A DNA stretch of 41,842 nt, taken from positions 1-41,842 of IMG/VR virus record IMGVR_UViG_3300033141_001144; one strand, 5' to 3'. Positions 13,836 to 27,173 of this stretch are shown piece by piece. The notes beneath the pieces were generated by a model. The model saw only the letters and a list, made by a program, of their open reading frames with translations, did not search any database and had not been told where the DNA came from. Source of the stretch: a virus. The first letter of the stretch is position 1; the number at the start of each line of letters is the position of its first letter. The position numbers were made by a program, and so were the translations under genes.

Positions 13836-13864
13836 TTGCATGGATGTGATCTATGCTGTATACT
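13836..13864 (+). promoter_or_regulatory. Sigma-70 promoter P3 for the noncoding RNA region
   Basis: TTGCAT (13836-13841), 17-nt spacer, TATACT (13859-13864). The spacer has an imperfect copy of the P2 palindrome, CATGGAT-GTG-ATCTATG. The predicted start, about 13871, falls at the 5' end of a structured RNA and about 300 nt before the next ATG. A GTCCGATAA word lies upstream at 13798-13806. Confidence 0.85.
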
Positions 13865-13869
13865 ATACA

Positions 13870-13931
13870 CAGTGGTTGGCAGTGAGAGACACGCCAAACG
13901 AGGCAAAAGTCAGGTTCATGACCAACCACTG
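13870..13931 (+). ncRNA. Three-way-junction RNA at the 5' end of the P3 transcript
   Basis: CAGTGGTTGG (13870-13879) is exactly complementary to CCAACCACTG (13922-13931). Inside, GGC-A-GTG (13878-13884) pairs with CACGCC (13890-13895) over an AGAGA loop, and GTCA (13909-13912) pairs with TGAC (13919-13922) over GGTTCA. The last pairs of the closing stem compete with the inner stems, giving a compact three-way junction. It starts at the predicted transcription start. It looks like a riboswitch-sized leader or a stabilising cap, but matches no class I know. Confidence 0.6.
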
Positions 13932-13948
13932 CTCTTTGATAATTGAAT

Positions 13949-13963
13949 GCGGGAGTAGCCCGC
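13949..13963 (+). other. Short hairpin between the two structured RNAs
   Basis: GCGGG (13949-13953) pairs with CCCGC (13959-13963) around AGTAG. It is followed by TATTTAT rather than a T-run, and separates the leader fold from the tRNA-like RNA. Confidence 0.5.
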
Positions 13964-13970
13964 TATTTAT

Positions 13971-14141
13971 ACCCGTGTAGCTTATTTGATTAAAGCGTTT
14001 ATGCCCTTGCCTATGGATAGTTGAATTGATGCCTGGGGCCCCGGCCATTGAACTCTCCATAGGATCGGAGCCTTGTGGGAGGCCTCCCACAAAGTCATCG
14101 CAAGGTATAAGAGAAGGCTGGTTTGAATCCTCCCACGGGTG
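13971..14141 (+). ncRNA. tRNA-shaped RNA with a large structured insert in the anticodon arm
   Basis: The 7-bp acceptor stem is perfect (13971-13977 with 14134-14140). U8 is 13978 and the D arm pairs GCTT 13980-13983 with AAGC 13993-13996 over a 9-nt loop with A14, G18, A19 and A21 in place. G26 is 13997. The anticodon stem TTTAT (13998-14002) pairs with ATAAG (14107-14111) and continues through CCTTGC/GCAAGG (14005-14010 with 14100-14105). Inside are hairpins 14011-14062 and the 20-nt palindrome 14073-14092. The T loop is TTTGAAT (14122-14128). The usual G19-C56 tertiary pair is replaced by A19-U56. Odd points: the T stem pairs only 3 of 5, no CCA is encoded, and there is no 7-nt anticodon loop. 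It could be an intron-bearing tRNA, a tmRNA-like molecule or a decayed tRNA. Confidence 0.55.
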
Positions 14142-14164
14142 TTTTTGTAGAAAGGAAAAGCACT

Positions 14165-14296
14165 ATGGAAGTCACGATAGAGATGAAAGTTCGGGCGACC
14201 ATCAACATGCCCGAAGGATACGAAACCGACGACTTGTATGAGCGAGCCGAAGAAGTTTGGGCTCACGGAGAAGTTGTCAATCTGGAGGAACTTTGA
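14165..14296 (+). CDS. Small acidic protein (43 residues)
   Basis: ATG 14165 follows AAAGGA and reads MEVTIEMKVRATINMPEGY, then an acidic helix ending VVNLEEL. The stop TGA overlaps the next ATG (TGATG). The alternating start suggests a beta hairpin, as in small phage proteins of similar shape. It is the first gene after the noncoding RNA region. No function is assigned. Confidence 0.65.
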   Translation: MEVTIEMKVRATINMPEGYETDDLYERAEEVWAHGEVVNLEEL

Positions 14297-14736
14297 TGGC
14301 AATTGCAAAAAAGTGTCTTGCGTGCGACCACTATCGCAATACTTGCGTCGGCAAGAGTAACCCTTGCCCGGACTGGACTGCAATCAACCTCACACCGGAA
14401 TCGAAGGTTGAAGTCACGATAGTGCCGAAGGCCAGCATTCCGGAGCCAGAACCGAAGGTCGAAACTACGCCGAAAGACGGCGAAAGCCCGTCCCAGAAAT
14501 TCGACAGGATCGGTCAAAAGCGACAAGCCCAAGCCTTGGAAGCGATACGCAAGCTTGGGCACTTGACAAGCCACTATCGTCGCAAGAGAACCGGAATCAC
14601 GGCCTACACGTACGAGTGGACCGAAGAAATGGCTTTGGAACTTGTGCGACCTATCGAAGAAGCATTGGAGGCGTTGAAGGATGAACTGCTGGGATGCGAT
14701 AGCCCAAGAGAGCACGGCCTTATTGAGGAGAAGTGA
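14296..14736 (+). CDS. Cys-motif protein with helical C-terminus
   Basis: The 146-residue protein opens MAIAKKCLACDHYRNTC, with a CxxC and further Cys (NPCPDW) that form a small metal-binding knuckle. A Pro/Glu/Lys-rich linker (PEPEPKVETTPKDGE) follows, then an amphipathic helical part with RRKRTGITAYTYEWTEE. ATG 14296 overlaps the preceding stop; earlier in-frame codons overlap the previous gene. No family is recognised. The layout, metal knuckle plus linker plus helical domain, suggests a nucleic-acid or protein adaptor. Confidence 0.65.
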   Translation: MAIAKKCLACDHYRNTCVGKSNPCPDWTAINLTPESKVEVTIVPKASIPEPEPKVETTPKDGESPSQKFDRIGQKRQAQALEAIRKLGHLTSHYRRKRTGITAYTYEWTEEMALELVRPIEEALEALKDELLGCDSPREHGLIEEK

Positions 14737-14737
14737 G

Positions 14738-14920
14738 ATGCTGAGAGTCAAAGTCAACGATTTGGTCCTGATTGTTGGGGCTGACGATATGCCAGTGCAA
14801 GGAGTAGTTGTGGAAATTATGAGCCCCAGTATTGCCAAGGTCAAAACGACAACTGGCGTCCGCACAATCTTCATGTCTGCCCTACACGTACTCAACAGAC
14901 CAGAGGAGGTGACAGCGTGA
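14738..14920 (+). CDS. Small beta-rich protein (60 residues)
   Basis: MLRVKVNDLVLIVGADDMPV begins a protein of short strands, with VQGVVVEIMSPSIAKVKTT after it, resembling a small beta barrel (SH3 or KOW-like). GAGGAGAAGTGAG precedes ATG 14738. GTGA joins it to the next gene. The barrel is a guess from strand pattern; no named family. Confidence 0.6.
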   Translation: MLRVKVNDLVLIVGADDMPVQGVVVEIMSPSIAKVKTTTGVRTIFMSALHVLNRPEEVTA

Positions 14921-15249
14921 ATATCTGCCCAGACAGATGTGCTGTGTGTCTATCCTGTGCTCACGCTCGGCCTCACGAGAAGATTGATGATTGCTCACAT
15001 ACACGGTTTCGCTGCGACGAGAAGCCCAACAAGCTTCACCGTTGTAGGAAGTGGAAGCCGGTACTGAGCCGGTACTTGATCCAGAACAAGAAGAGTACGT
15101 TTATCGTGTCTGGCGTTGTGGCTGATTCCGTGCTTTCGAGCTTGATAGATATGTATGGCACTTCGGCCAAAGGGGACGTTTGTGGTAACCAACGCAGGGT
15201 ATCTCTGCCGATGTGGTTACGAGAAACTTTTGAGTTGGGGAGAATCTGA
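14917..15249 (+). CDS. Cys/His-rich small protein
   Basis: The 110-residue protein starts at GTG 14917 (GTGA overlap). Its first 45 residues contain CPDRCAVCLSCAHARPHEK, DCSHTRFRC and HRCRKWKP, at least seven Cys and several His, which should bind one or two zinc ions. The rest has a helix near VVADSVLSSLIDMYG. It is one of many small metal-binding proteins in this region. Function unknown. Confidence 0.65.
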   Translation: MNICPDRCAVCLSCAHARPHEKIDDCSHTRFRCDEKPNKLHRCRKWKPVLSRYLIQNKKSTFIVSGVVADSVLSSLIDMYGTSAKGDVCGNQRRVSLPMWLRETFELGRI

Positions 15250-15704
15250 TGGAGTTCCCGATCTATCGAATCGAATTTGATCTGAACATTATTGACCAAA
15301 AAGAGCCTATACAGTGCCGACAGGAGATGATGCTACAGACCAAATTCGCGAATGGGGATGAGGCCCTGGCGTCTCTTCGTCGGATGGCCCGAAGCTTGGC
15401 AGATGTCCTTGGTGTAGAAGATTTAGTCGAAAGCTGGGAAGGCTCTATTGTATTCGCCAGGATGGATACATGGTGCTCGCACTGGAATAGCCACTACTGT
15501 TATCGCCGATTTCCTACGCCCGCCGACGCCTTATCGTCCTTTGTGGAGTACAAACGTCGGCATCCAGAGGAAGTGTCAACGCCCCCGGAAGACTGGCATA
15601 TCTGCCCGTGCGAAACCTGTAAAGCCTTGGGCAGGACAGTGGTTCTTCATTGGCATTTTTTGGGAGTGGACGAATGCAAAACATGTTTCTCAGTATCGTT
15701 ATAA
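15249..15704 (+). CDS. Hypothetical protein with C-terminal Cys motif
   Basis: The 151-residue protein starts MEFPIYRIEFDLNIIDQK. The middle is aromatic-rich (WCSHWNSHYCYRRF) and the end has CPCETCKALGR and DECKTC, a likely zinc site. ATG 15249 overlaps the previous TGA (TGATG). Its 3' end overlaps the next gene's start by about 30 nt. No family is recognised. Confidence 0.65.
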   Translation: MEFPIYRIEFDLNIIDQKEPIQCRQEMMLQTKFANGDEALASLRRMARSLADVLGVEDLVESWEGSIVFARMDTWCSHWNSHYCYRRFPTPADALSSFVEYKRRHPEEVSTPPEDWHICPCETCKALGRTVVLHWHFLGVDECKTCFSVSL

Positions 15705-15940: not shown

Positions 15941-16478
15941 AGAACTTTTCGACCTTCAATGTCAACTTAACCGGTATACGGGGTTCGATGACGAACACTT
16001 CGCCGAGGCATTTTGTGGCAAAGCTGCTCATGGAAGTATAGAACTTGCAGCCCATGAATTAGCTAAAATCGAATCCGGCCAGTGGATCGACAATTTCTTG
16101 AAGGCTATGGCCTCCGAAATGGAGGAGCTTCGCAATTGCACTTACTGGAAGCACTGGTGCTCCGAAGCCCAGGGTGGGGAGCGGTACAAGGTTAGGGACG
16201 TAACGTCAGCACGCAAAGAGATCATCGACATGTTGCACTTCTGGATCAACTTGGCTCAGGCAGTTGGTATGACTCCGGAGATGGTTGAGGAGATGTACCA
16301 AGCAAAGCTGATCCAGAGTATCCAGAGGCAGAAAGATGGCTACTCCATCGAAATCAAGAACGCGGCCTGGAAGATGTATCTGGAAGACATGCCTGAGGGT
16401 GAGGCCGTGGTATCGTTCGAGGATTTGAGCGATATTCAGCAGCAAGTATATTTGAGCTTAGCTAAATTAGGGGCATGA
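15930..16478 (+). CDS. Dimeric dUTPase / all-alpha NTP pyrophosphatase
   Basis: The 182-residue protein fits the all-alpha dimeric dUTPase family. EMEELRNCTYWKHW provides the first acidic metal-binding motif (near residues 65-78) and EIIDMLHFWINLAQ the second ExxD motif (near 97-110), followed by QRQKDGYS. It would hydrolyse dUTP to dUMP and pyrophosphate, keeping uracil out of phage DNA and supplying dUMP. Start is GTG 15930, with AAGGA upstream; the gene overlaps the membrane protein by 11 nt and RtcB by 4 nt (ATGA). Confidence 0.8.
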   Translation: MTIKELFDLQCQLNRYTGFDDEHFAEAFCGKAAHGSIELAAHELAKIESGQWIDNFLKAMASEMEELRNCTYWKHWCSEAQGGERYKVRDVTSARKEIIDMLHFWINLAQAVGMTPEMVEEMYQAKLIQSIQRQKDGYSIEIKNAAWKMYLEDMPEGEAVVSFEDLSDIQQQVYLSLAKLGA

Positions 16479-17641
16479 CTATGGAAGCCGTATGGCACAC
16501 AAGGACACAAGTCCCTGCAATGTTTTGGCTGCCGCCTGATGAACTGAGTATAGACTGCCAAAATCAAGTCAGGAACCTAATGCGACTGCCATTTGCGATT
16601 CACCATATCGCGATTATGCCTGATGCCCATGTCGGCTATGGTATGCCCATCGGAGCAATTTTGGCGACGAAAGACGTCGTGGTTGTCAACGCCGTGGGTG
16701 TTGATATTGGTTGTGGAATGTTGGCCTCTCGATTGATAGATGTCCCCGAACTTGAGAAGCGGCTGCCGGAGATTCGACACAAGATCATGCAGCGAGTGCC
16801 GAGAGGCTTCAAAAAGCATGAGACGCCACGCGATGATGCAAACCTACCTGACCTACCTCACTCCCATCTTGTGCGAAGTCAGGCAGTTAATGCCATGCTA
16901 CAACTCGGCACTTTGGGCGGTGGAAATCACTTCATCGAAATACAGCGGGCGAAGGACGGCGGCGTTTGGGTGATGATCCACAGTGGCTCACGAAACCTCG
17001 GCAAACAGGTATGTGATTACTACAACGCCTGGGCTAAGGATGACAACATCGCGAACTTCTCGCGGGTTGACCCCAAATGGGATTTGGCATTTTTCCACCA
17101 AACTCATAACGGATTTAAGGAATATATGGATGACATGAACTTCTGCATCGCCTACGCAGAAAGGAATCGACGTCTGATGCTACATTCCGTCGTAGAAGTG
17201 TTTCGGGAGTTTTGGCCAGACATGACCTTTGTCTCAGCCATCGACATTTGCCACAACAGTGCTGCAATCGAAAACCACTACAGGCAGAACATGATTATCC
17301 ACAGGAAAGGTGCTGCCGGGCCTTTACGAAAGAACTACGGAATCATCCCCGGATCAATGGGGACTCCATCATACATTGTACGAGGTAGAGGGTCTGCGGC
17401 TGCGTACTTCTCGACATCGCACGGGGCCGGGCGGCGGATGGGCCGCAAAGAAGCCCAGAGAGCATTGAGTCTCGCAGAACAGCAGGCGAAGATGGGCGGT
17501 ATTGCCCATGGGTTGGCGACTCTTTGCCAGTTAGATGAAGCCCCTGACGCCTACAAGGACATTCACATAGTCATGAATCGACAAACCGACCTATGTGAGA
17601 CCTTGGCTGAATTAACGCCTCTGGCCTCGATTAAGGGGTAA
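16475..17641 (+). CDS. rtcB: RtcB, GTP-dependent RNA-splicing/repair ligase
   Basis: The 388-residue protein is a complete RtcB. Metal-binding and active-site motifs are all present: DAHVGYGMPIGAI, GVDIGCGM (D77, C80), GGGNHF (H152), IHSGSRNLG (H169), DICHNSAA (H260), IIHRKGAAGP and SHGAGRRMG with the guanylylated His at H316. RtcB joins RNA 3'-phosphate or 2',3'-cyclic phosphate to 5'-OH, using GTP and Mn2+. The ATG is coupled to the dUTPase stop. A promoter and a cREC-domain gene follow immediately. In phages it may repair cleaved tRNA or splice RNA; the nearby tRNA-like RNA makes that worth testing. Confidence 0.95.
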   Translation: MTMEAVWHTRTQVPAMFWLPPDELSIDCQNQVRNLMRLPFAIHHIAIMPDAHVGYGMPIGAILATKDVVVVNAVGVDIGCGMLASRLIDVPELEKRLPEIRHKIMQRVPRGFKKHETPRDDANLPDLPHSHLVRSQAVNAMLQLGTLGGGNHFIEIQRAKDGGVWVMIHSGSRNLGKQVCDYYNAWAKDDNIANFSRVDPKWDLAFFHQTHNGFKEYMDDMNFCIAYAERNRRLMLHSVVEVFREFWPDMTFVSAIDICHNSAAIENHYRQNMIIHRKGAAGPLRKNYGIIPGSMGTPSYIVRGRGSAAAYFSTSHGAGRRMGRKEAQRALSLAEQQAKMGGIAHGLATLCQLDEAPDAYKDIHIVMNRQTDLCETLAELTPLASIKG

Positions 17642-17664
17642 AGTACGTATTGCCGATTTTTCGC

Positions 17665-17693
17665 TTGCTTTCTATCGATCTATGTAGTATACT
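17665..17693 (+). promoter_or_regulatory. Sigma-70 promoter P4
   Basis: TTGCTT (17665-17670), 17-nt spacer, TATACT (17688-17693). The stretch ATCTATGTAGTATACTTTA is the same as in P2, but the left palindrome arm is degenerate. Confidence 0.85.
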
Positions 17694-17719
17694 TTAAGTA
17701 TATTAGAAAGGAGATCGAA

Positions 17720-18028
17720 ATGGAGATACTTGTTGATGACATCAGAACTTTCGGTGTGGACATCATTGCCCGAAACTACAGTGCGGCCCAAAAAGTTGTG
17801 TTGGGCTGTGGCACTGAGATCGACGTGTTGTGGCTGGATCACGATCTGGGAGAGGAAAAGACTGGATATGACCTGATTCAATGGATGATGCAGATTCAGT
17901 ACAAACCTCGGAAAGTTCGCATTGTCTCATTGAATCCCGTAGGTCGCGAGAACATCACCAAGTGCCTTAAAGCGAACAGCTATACCCTAACGTGGGATGG
18001 CTGGTTCATTCTTGCAGAGGAGTACTGA
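17720..18028 (+). CDS. cREC-type receiver-domain protein
   Basis: The 102-residue protein is a single receiver-like domain. LWLDHDLGEEKTGYDLIQWM (residues about 38-57) and VRIVSLNPVGRENI (about 68-81) match the hallmark blocks of the cREC family (cyclic-phosphate-processing receiver, Pfam cREC_REC as I recall it), where a DHDLG acid cluster and an NPVG motif replace ordinary phospho-acceptor chemistry. The family is predicted to act on cyclic-phosphate RNA ends. It sits directly after RtcB under its own promoter, with AAAGGAGA before ATG 17720, which fits that prediction. Function in phages is unproven. Confidence 0.8.
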   Translation: MEILVDDIRTFGVDIIARNYSAAQKVVLGCGTEIDVLWLDHDLGEEKTGYDLIQWMMQIQYKPRKVRIVSLNPVGRENITKCLKANSYTLTWDGWFILAEEY

Positions 18029-20746: not shown

Positions 20747-21102
20747 GGATTGAAAAGCAAGAACTGATTGTTGAGAATGCACACCTCGGCCTCTTCACTT
20801 GCTGCCTCTGCGGGGCCCAAGGTAAAAACTTCCGGCTCACGCATATGTCTGGATGTATCTTTCAAAACATACACATCCAGGAGGTAGACCTTCACGGCGT
20901 CCCATACTCAGTGGATTTTAGTTGGGACGCCCGTAATAAGTGCTGGCACTGGACCGCCCCGAACGACGTGCTGTATGTAATCCGACAAACCAGACATGGA
21001 ACATACCAAATGTTGCACAACGAGGAAGTCATCTTAAAGGCGGATACCTTGGGCACACTACGGAATCTAATCTATCACGATATCGAACGCTTTGGAGGCT
21101 GA
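20734..21102 (+). CDS. Zinc-finger-like hypothetical protein
   Basis: The 122-residue protein has FTCCLCGAQGKNFRLTHMSG near residues 21-40, a CxxC followed by an H, and a beta-rich rest (VPYSVDFSWDARNKCWHW). The preferred start is ATG 20734, with GGAGAAAGTACA before it; ATG 20743 is coupled to the previous stop and is an alternative. Function unknown. Confidence 0.6.
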   Translation: MWRMRIEKQELIVENAHLGLFTCCLCGAQGKNFRLTHMSGCIFQNIHIQEVDLHGVPYSVDFSWDARNKCWHWTAPNDVLYVIRQTRHGTYQMLHNEEVILKADTLGTLRNLIYHDIERFGG

Positions 21103-22137: not shown

Positions 22138-22595
22138 ATTATAGGGTCCACTCGTTCTATTTCATACTCTATTAACGGACTTTTCGTAAATGCTTGACAA
22201 CACTGGGTTTAGGGGTTGACTCACTTTTGGGGCCAAAAAAGTTGCTACCGACCAGTAAGGGATAAATACTGTTGGGGAAGGGACTTATGCAGGAGTACTC
22301 TTTTACGCCTTTATTTTCAATCACGCAACCAGAAAACTCAAGCTGAGGGACATCGGTCATAGAATTGAAAGAGAACTCAAACAAGAAAAATAAGTTGTAT
22401 AAGATGATGAAGTTATTAAGTATAGTATTTTTAACGACTTACGTCAGGTAACTACGGTACCACTTCTGTTATTTCCTGGAGAAAAGTTGTATACGAATTC
22501 TTTCGTAGTTAAGGGCGTGCAATCTGGGCTAAAAGTGGCTCGATTCAGGACTCTCGCCGCTGATCTGAGGCCCAGAGACGCCCGGCGGATGTCGA
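22138..22595. other. AT-rich intergenic stretch without a supported gene
   Basis: About 460 bp lies between the last gene of the P5 block and the repeats. TTGACA occurs at 22194-22199 but no matching -10 element follows. A 70-residue frame on the minus strand (22172-22384) has no ribosome site and is not supported. The lower GC content differs from the flanking genes. I see no confirmed feature. Confidence 0.5.
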
Positions 22596-22742
22596 GGGTG
22601 GGTTAAGGGTGGGTTGGCCTTCCTGCGGCCTCTCAGAGGGTGGGTTGACGTTTGTAGAGGGTGGGTTGAGGGTGGGTTGACTTTTTTGTTCGCTGCCAGA
22701 GGGTGGGTTGGCCTTTGTTAAGGGTGGGTTGAGGGTGGGTTG
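22596..22742 (+). repeat. GGGTGGGTTG repeats forming potential G-quadruplexes
   Basis: Eight copies of the GGGTGGGTT core lie in 147 bp, all on the + strand. Three pairs are 4 nt apart and give four G-tracts each: 22596-22613, 22659-22676 and 22722-22739. All fit the four-GGG, short-loop rule for intramolecular G-quadruplexes. The same core builds the stalk repeats in the protease gene at 12.1 kb. Confidence 0.85.
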
Positions 22743-24543: not shown

Positions 24544-24571
24544 TTGCTTTCCTGCGAACATAGGTTATACT
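24544..24571 (+). promoter_or_regulatory. Sigma-70 promoter P7
   Basis: TTGCTT (24544-24549), 16-nt spacer, TATACT (24566-24571). It lies in a 36-bp block (24539-24574) exactly repeated at P8. Confidence 0.85.
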
Positions 24572-24605
24572 TTAAGGGTAAGGAACCTATTTAGGAGAGT
24601 CAGAA

Positions 24606-24756: not shown

Positions 24757-24784
24757 TTGCTTTCCTGCGAACATAGGTTATACT
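24757..24784 (+). promoter_or_regulatory. Sigma-70 promoter P8, duplicate of P7
   Basis: TTGCTT (24757-24762), 16-nt spacer, TATACT (24779-24784). The 36-bp block 24752-24787 is identical to 24539-24574. It starts 6 nt after the previous stop. Confidence 0.85.
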
Positions 24785-24815
24785 TTACGTAGCAAGGGTT
24801 TGTAGGAGCAAGATT

Positions 24816-26507: not shown

Positions 26508-26540
26508 CGGCCGAAGGTAAGCCTTCGGCCGTATTCTTTT
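26508..26540 (+). terminator. Rho-independent terminator
   Basis: CGGCCGAAGG (26508-26517) pairs with CCTTCGGCCG (26522-26531) around TAAG, followed by TATTCTTTT. It ends the hexapeptide transcript. Confidence 0.85.
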
Positions 26541-26545
26541 GCTCA

Positions 26546-27113
26546 GCGGCAGGCGCTCTGGCGGCCGACACCACGGCGGCAGGCGCTCTGGCAGCCGACA
26601 CCACGGCAGCCGACACCACGGCGGCAGGCGCTCTGGTAGCCGACACTCTGGTAGCCGACACTCTGGCAGCCGACGCTCTGGCAGCCGACATCGCAGCGGC
26701 AGGCGCTCTGGCAGCCGACATCGCAGCGGCAGGCGCTCTGGCGGCCGACACCACGGCGGCCGACACCACGGCGGCAGGCGCTCTGGCAGCCGACGCTCTG
26801 GCAGCCGATCTGGCAGCCGACACTCTGGCAGCCGACGCTCTGGCAGCCGACACCACGGCGGCAGGCGCTCTGGCAGCCGACACCACGGCAGCCGACACCA
26901 CGGCGGCAGGCGCTCTGGCAGCCGACACCACGGCGGCCGACACCACGGCGGCAGGCGCTCTGGCAGCCGACATCGCAGCGGCCGACGCCACGGCGGCAGG
27001 CGATCTGGCAGCCGACATCGCAGCGGCCGACACCACGGCGGCAGGCGCTCTGGCAGCCGACATCGCAGCGGCAGGCGCTCTGGCAGCCGACACCACGGCG
27101 GCAGCCGACGCCG
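26546..27113 (+). repeat. Modular 15-bp repeat array (about 38 units)
   Basis: The stretch is built almost only from 15-bp modules, such as GGCGGCAGGCGCTCT, GGCAGCCGACACCAC, GGTAGCCGACACTCT and GGCAGCCGACATCGC, in variable order. One module is 12 bp (26811-26822), so lengths stay multiples of three. All six frames are open or nearly so, and none has a ribosome site and start: the + frame from 26539 would begin with TTG inside the terminator, and the frame coding AAGALAADTT has no start codon. I annotate it as repeat DNA, not as a gene. Confidence 0.8.
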
Positions 27114-27173
27114 AAATTTCTTATAGGACCTTGGCGGTGGCCGGAATTTCTTATGGGACCACCGCAGATTGGC

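Follow-up and report, generated by a model that had tools for sequence, protein, structure and literature searches.

What kind of RNA keeps the body of a transfer RNA (tRNA) and carries about 100 nt of structured insert where the anticodon loop would stand? The question is raised by positions 13971 to 14141 of a viral DNA of 41,842 nucleotides (IMG/VR record IMGVR_UViG_3300033141_001144), the whole of which is called the window here. An earlier note, made from the letters of this stretch alone, had offered an intron-containing tRNA, a minimal RNA resembling transfer-messenger RNA (tmRNA) or a new RNA that mimics tRNA, and had also allowed for decay. Comparison with related phages supports the third proposal: the RNA is very probably a tRNA mimic, with covariation of cloverleaf and elbow in five phages. 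It is a variant of tRNA-like noncoding RNA that stands outside any named family, and no description of such an RNA was found in the abstracts and selected passages of the open-licence literature.

The RNA and its parts are laid out in the window as follows.

13971..14141, plus strand: predicted non-decoding tRNA-like RNA, 171 nt (cloverleaf reading, descriptor scan, covariation)
13971..13977, plus strand: acceptor stem, 5' strand ACCCGTG, 7 of 7 pairs with 14134-14140
13980..13996, plus strand: D arm GCTT-ATTTGATTA-AAGC, 4 of 4 pairs, holding A14, G18 and A19
13998..14002, plus strand: anticodon stem, 5' strand TTTAT, pairing with ATAAG
14003..14106, plus strand: insert replacing the anticodon loop, 104 nt (direct reading, folding)
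14010..14063, plus strand: insert hairpin 1, 17-nt arms, 88% complementary
14073..14092, plus strand: insert hairpin 2, perfect palindrome TTGTGGGAGGCCTCCCACAA (inverted repeat)
14107..14111, plus strand: anticodon stem, 3' strand ATAAG, pairing with TTTAT
14117..14133, plus strand: T arm GCTGG-TTTGAAT-CCTCC, stem 14117-14121/14129-14133, 3 of 5 pairs
14134..14140, plus strand: acceptor stem, 3' strand CACGGGT, with the discriminator G at 14141 and CCA not encoded

Every tRNA part that the earlier note had named finds its place in this layout. The acceptor and D stems are complete, U8 and A9 are 13978-13979, G26 (13997) faces A44 (14112), and the T loop UUUGAAU supplies U54, U55, U56 and A58. 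The anticodon stem forms 5 of 5 pairs, the outermost being U-G, and the helix is extended within the insert by CCTTGC (14005-14010) pairing with GCAAGG (14100-14105); the described continuation into a long helix with two hairpins, in place of a 7-nt loop, is seen in the window, and an insert put at about 100 nt measures 104 nt. The T stem is indeed weak, at three pairs of five. The missing CCA end could be added by a host enzyme.

Relatives were gathered by scans with the primase and dUTPase-like genes of the window phage, and the phages found in this way have a primase identity of 73-74%. At least four of them (L008, L006, L047 and L052) carry tRNA-shaped RNAs with inserts in the same noncoding stretch, which lies 3' of common early-region genes and 5' of genes matching window positions 14165-15704. 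The counterparts are these.

L008: 15885-16052 and 16278-16418
L006: 17298-17436, with further units at 17604-17675 and 17697-17815
L047: 5126-5265
L052: 16743-16901

Among six members, standard pairs fill 120 of the 126 cloverleaf cells, and both sides have changed in 14 of the 21 pairs; when the 3' strands were dealt between sequences in 2000 trials, the mean was 85 paired cells and the maximum 105. An alignment of eight sequences gives the same picture, with 96.9% of cloverleaf cells paired and two-sided changes at 16 of 20 pairs, while none of 500 shuffles reaches any of the measures and slid structures fall to 36-50%. The elbow follows the helices. By inspection, the window and L047 have A-U at pair 19-56, both L008 RNAs and L052 have G-C, L006 has G.U, and the third L006 unit has C-G; a mismatch (A.C) occurs only in the L006 unit at 17604. 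The earlier reading of A19-U56 as a compensating replacement of G19-C56 was right, and the position covaries in relatives. The 54-58 contact, again by inspection, is swapped to A-U in L052. Both a covarying cloverleaf and the contacts between D loop and T loop, by which membership in the tRNA fold can be judged, are thus present. A check for covariation in related phages had been set as a possible refutation of the element; it was run, and covariation is present in the helices. In addition, the Rfam tRNA model scores 38.6 bits (cut-off 29) on L008 15885-16052, where it bridges a 101-nt insert, and 28.8 bits against the same cut-off on L008 16278-16418.

Within the window the signal is more modest. 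ARAGORN and Rfam, both among the checks that the earlier note had proposed, give no match at 13971-14141. A descriptor for a cloverleaf with an insert ranks 13971-14141 first in the window with a score of 19.0, which is reached anywhere in 7 of 600 first-order Markov copies of the window (p ~0.012); because this descriptor was composed after the candidate had been seen, its score is supportive rather than decisive. The folding energy of the whole window RNA is unremarkable (z -1.76). Its cloverleaf lies 2.5 kcal/mol above the minimum free energy (MFE) fold; the cloverleaf is the MFE fold in four relatives and is less than 3 kcal/mol off it in the second L008 RNA (L008 B) and in L047. The comparative data are what we take as decisive support for the predicted RNA being real.

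The only near-identical copy is in one contig (99.98% identity to the window over 8.6 kb), and a scan with the SprT-like protein returned that contig only. A blastn search with the window RNA did not retrieve the counterparts in related loci, and similarity searches of GenBank phages with the window RNA and the L052 and L008 arrays returned chance matches and short tRNA-end matches only. A generic D-arm pattern in viral contigs found mostly ordinary tRNAs and YrlA-like RNAs, with L008 as the only relevant case. No such RNA and no boxA match (see below) was found in the primase surroundings of six isolate relatives (Pam3, Ab18, AIIMS-Plu-RaNi, Bhz59, Simon and RHph_I65), and no close relative was found in genome contigs. 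A covariance model of the body only (R1) recovers most short-insert members; it misses L052 and does not find the window copy whole, since its alignment breaks on inserts of about 100 nt or more. In L007 and L046 no such RNA was found at the corresponding place, and the RNA cassette is therefore dispensable. In a distant relative, L110, a 140-nt tRNA-like RNA at 13934-14073 adjoins an ordinary CCA-encoding tRNA; its acceptor, D and T arms fit, and its anticodon stem does not.

What lies in the anticodon arm is far less constant. The inserts measure 104 nt in the window, 101 and 74 nt in L008, 75 nt in L006, 76 nt in L047, 95 nt in L052 and 54 nt in the third L006 unit, and two further L006 units have only a stub of 7 or 4 nt where the insert would be. 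Most inserts fold as an extension of the anticodon stem that ends in two or more hairpins. Compared with dinucleotide shuffles, stability is above chance only for L052 (z -4.3) and the window (z -2.1, p 0.04), and the other five of seven inserts are no more stable than their shuffles. A shared three-way junction was seen in the folds; it is not claimed here, since for most inserts the fold is no more stable than that of shuffled sequence. In the two L008 inserts, inspection shows a common hairpin with the loop AGUGCAA and a compensated stem, and no sequence is common to inserts of different phages except a GUGCAA loop in L008 and L006. The insert is under some constraint, yet conservation across phages lies in the tRNA body; because inserts vary in length and only two beat shuffles, the body, rather than the insert, is probably the working part. 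A side observation concerns hairpin 2, whose 5' strand GTGGGAGG (14075-14082) can pair with the 3' strand of the T arm and acceptor, CCTCCCAC (14129-14136). The 22-nt stretches around these two sites are 73% alike, and it is possible that hairpin 2 was derived from the T arm or takes part in an alternative fold.

The RNA is preceded by a leader and followed by a short spacer, of which the elements are given below.

13836..13864, plus strand: predicted phage promoter, TTGCAT, 17-nt spacer, TATACT, with the same element in relatives
13870..13931, plus strand: leader hairpin CAGTGGTTGG / CCAACCACTG, a perfect 10-bp inverted repeat near the expected transcription start
13931..13942, plus strand: boxA-like antitermination element GCTCTTTGATAA, the only match in the window
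13949..13963, plus strand: hairpin GCGGG-AGTAG-CCCGC, just 5' of the tRNA-like RNA
14142..14150, plus strand: U-rich spacer TTTTTGTAG (direct reading), with similar spacers after L006, L008 and L052 units
14165..14296, plus strand: small gene of 43 aa, 3' of the RNA locus, kept in L006, L007, L008, L046 and L047 (tblastn)

The promoter, which in the window scores below the threshold of a generic sigma-70 scan, precedes the RNA arrays of L006, L008, L046, L047 and L052 in slight variants with spacers of 16-17 nt. After this shared promoter and ahead of the RNAs comes the leader sequence GCTCTTTGANAA, which we take to fit the boxA antitermination element of rRNA leaders. Across 118 loci, the exact boxA pattern occurs only in the records of the window phage, L008, L046, L047 and L052, and there at the leader; L006 has a boxA-like element with one base different, and a separate promoter, with no clear boxA, precedes the second L008 RNA. 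L046, without the RNA, still has the promoter, boxA and a short hairpin. As promoter and boxA leader precede the RNAs in common, the sequences suggest that these loci are untranslated RNA operons. A second conserved noncoding element lies beside the tRNA-like RNAs (L006 ~17440-17600, L008 ~16070-16190, L046 5375-5480 and L052 16905-17005) and is laid out as GAGGCGTCANCTAnAnnCTGTCCACGCCTACAA, a variable hairpin and GGGGCAG, in which pairing of CUGUCC with GGGGCAG would form a pseudoknot; searches of L052 and L008 gave no Rfam family for it.

Could the RNA nevertheless decode? The 7-nt anticodon loop is absent from every long-insert member, and at the borders of the insert the member sequences conserve neither U33 nor an anticodon nor purine 37 (position 33 of the window RNA is C). 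CCA is encoded in none of the long-insert members, and none has a G3-U70 pair. A long arm stands where the code-reading loop would be, so the RNA cannot read codons, and an ordinary decoding tRNA was rejected on the lack of a usable anticodon loop and of any ARAGORN call on the window RNA. The short forms point the same way: the 72-nt L006 unit at 17604-17675 has a 7-nt loop, CGACCGG, without U33, and L006 4184-4256 is called tRNA-Glu by ARAGORN, yet its anticodon arm GGGGA-GTTC-TCCCC closes on four nucleotides. The L047 array includes two ordinary tRNAs (Ile and Gln), and real and non-decoding tRNAs can therefore sit side by side.

The mechanism that we tentatively put forward as a whole is that of a decoy, in which a non-decoding phage tRNA mimic occupies, in the infected bacterium, host factors that grip tRNA. 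The phage promoter and boxA leader would drive its transcription, in several phages jointly with other noncoding RNAs, and the leader would help RNA polymerase along the untranslated RNA. The ends would be cut by host tRNA-processing enzymes recognising acceptor and elbow, and the RNA could then occupy factors gripping these same parts, for example a defence nuclease aimed at tRNA or a processing enzyme. Having no anticodon to cut, it would shield real tRNAs, and those cut anyway could be mended by an RtcB ligase encoded 2.3 kb downstream.

16475..17641, plus strand: RtcB RNA ligase gene, a possible, non-obligatory partner (PF01139, E 4.5e-96)

Occupation of a tRNA-gripping factor seems the likeliest role because body and elbow are conserved and the insert is variable and at times nearly absent. 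The literature offers precedents: the tRNA-like domain of YrlA has been suggested to act as a competitor against an anticodon nuclease (PMC7790460), and phage tRNAs have been described as countering tRNA-cleaving defences (PMC10264068, PMC11555353). The presence of RtcB in the window, L046, L047, L052 and L054 fits phages that meet tRNA damage.

Several points weigh against the decoy. The RtcB link is loose, because L006 has only a 69-aa C-terminal piece (20776-20988) where relatives have the whole gene, none was seen in the L008 sequence examined, and L046 has RtcB without the RNA; on these three phages RtcB was rejected as an obligatory partner. Conservation of the elbow could serve processing alone, and anticodon-reading nucleases may fail to bind a mimic that lacks the anticodon loop. 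The T stem forms 3 of 5 pairs in the window, as against 4 or 5 of 5 in the relatives, and for this reason the window copy may be relaxed.

The main rival, which we hold possible and rather unlikely, is a natural tRNA scaffold, with the body serving processing and stability and the insert acting as a cargo whose partner would be a protein or RNA of host or phage. The engineered tRNA scaffold, with foreign RNA placed in the anticodon arm, has an equal design (PMC3753655), and the scaffold reading would account for the window and L052 inserts that beat shuffles (z -2.1 and -4.3) and for the AGUGCAA-loop hairpin shared by the two L008 inserts. However, inserts of different phages have only the GUGCAA loop of L008 and L006 in common, five of seven gain no folding stability over shuffled sequence, and cargo is absent from two L006 units. 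An analogue of Y RNA, whose extended anticodon arm would bind a Ro60-like protein and tether it to another factor, is improbable. It has in its favour the design of YrlA, a tRNA-like body with a long helix, and a link to RtcB that may parallel the rsr-yrl-rtcB operons (PMC7790460), but the YrlA model RF02553 has no match in the records of the window phage, L008, L047 and L052, its matches in L006 are weak and below threshold, the parts stand in normal tRNA order, and no TROVE (Ro60) gene occurs in the window, L006, L008, L047, L052 and L046 records, which are possibly incomplete, while a host protein is possible.

Slightly less probable again is an intron-containing tRNA, in which the insert would be removed and RtcB would join the halves into a decoding tRNA. 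The site of the insert in the anticodon arm and the nearby RtcB gene agree with such a scheme, but the insert borders lack conserved U33, anticodon and purine 37, the window helix continues without a bulge-helix-bulge, and no Rfam intron family was found. The 72-nt L006 units without insert likewise have no usable anticodon loop, and in the sequence examined L008 and L006 carry the RNA but no intact RtcB. Decay of phage tRNA genes with random insertions is very doubtful: the weakened T stem of the window and the absence of the RNA from some relatives could be its marks, but the four helices and the elbow all show compensatory changes between divergent sequences, which contradicts decay for the family, because covariation requires continued selection, and promoter and boxA are kept. 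A minimal tmRNA is hardly credible, for although a tRNA-like domain is joined to a long helix, a true 4-bp D stem is present, pair 3-70 is never G-U in any member, neither ARAGORN nor Rfam calls a tmRNA, and no conserved tag frame was seen.

Beyond this locus the window has other repeated features. A long GC-rich array of short repeats, for example GGCGGCAGGCGCTCTGGCAGCCGACACCACGGC, lies at ~26520-27130; a noncoding stretch at ~22560-22740 has many copies of AGGGTGGGTTG, some directly successive; and two identical promoter-like copies, TTGCTTTCCTGCGAACATAGGTTATACTTTA, are located at 24544-24574 and 24757-24787.

The wider proposal, for and against which we see about equal grounds, is a new class of viral noncoding RNA: boxA-led, non-decoding tRNA mimics that keep the elbow by selection and either block tRNA-targeting defence or bear functional RNA arms that can be exchanged on a tRNA body, in which case nature would have anticipated the engineered tRNA scaffold. 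Standard tRNA finders miss this group of phage RNAs. Antiphage defences often strike tRNA. A mimic without a cuttable anticodon would be a simple RNA counter-weapon.

Known systems resemble the window RNA in different respects. The T4 RNAs rnaC and rnaD are likewise stable noncoding phage RNAs in a tRNA region, and rnaC has a T arm; PMC3014915 gives their role as not established. They were rejected as homologues, as the T4 sequences have neither a 7-bp acceptor stem nor a D arm. The phage tRNAs that counter defences (PMC10264068, PMC11555353) are also phage-encoded tRNA bodies, but they keep the anticodon and replace the cleaved tRNA or resist cleavage, whereas the window RNA cannot decode. 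tmRNA shares the tRNA-like ends and the long extension of the anticodon stem; the window RNA differs in its D stem and lack of G3-U70, and no pseudoknot chain or tag frame was identified in it. YrlA (RF02553) is the closest known design, with D and T arms in a tRNA-like body, a long helix for an anticodon arm, no decoding and a tie to RtcB in some operons; the window RNA is not shown to be a Y RNA. The YrlA-like RNAs that this analysis found in other phages have permuted tRNA halves and a closed acceptor end, whereas the window RNA has the normal order and ends at the acceptor. Permuted tRNA-like RNAs, with the 3' half first, were seen in L027 (minus strand), L034 (2497), L035 (minus strand, three), L039 (858), L077 (11653), L079 (16057), L081 (15549), L084 (15348) and L090 (16128). 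The YrlA model matches most of these nine records, below its cut-off, and two of them (L027 and L035) carry TROVE, on which grounds permuted tRNA genes were rejected as a separate novelty; the RNAs are probably not permuted tRNAs but Y RNAs of phages. Finally, the engineered tRNA scaffold (PMC3753655) also keeps acceptor, D and T arms and has a structured RNA in place of the anticodon loop. That scaffold is man-made, whereas the window RNA and its counterparts are natural phage genes, and nature would thus have used a design that biotechnologists built.
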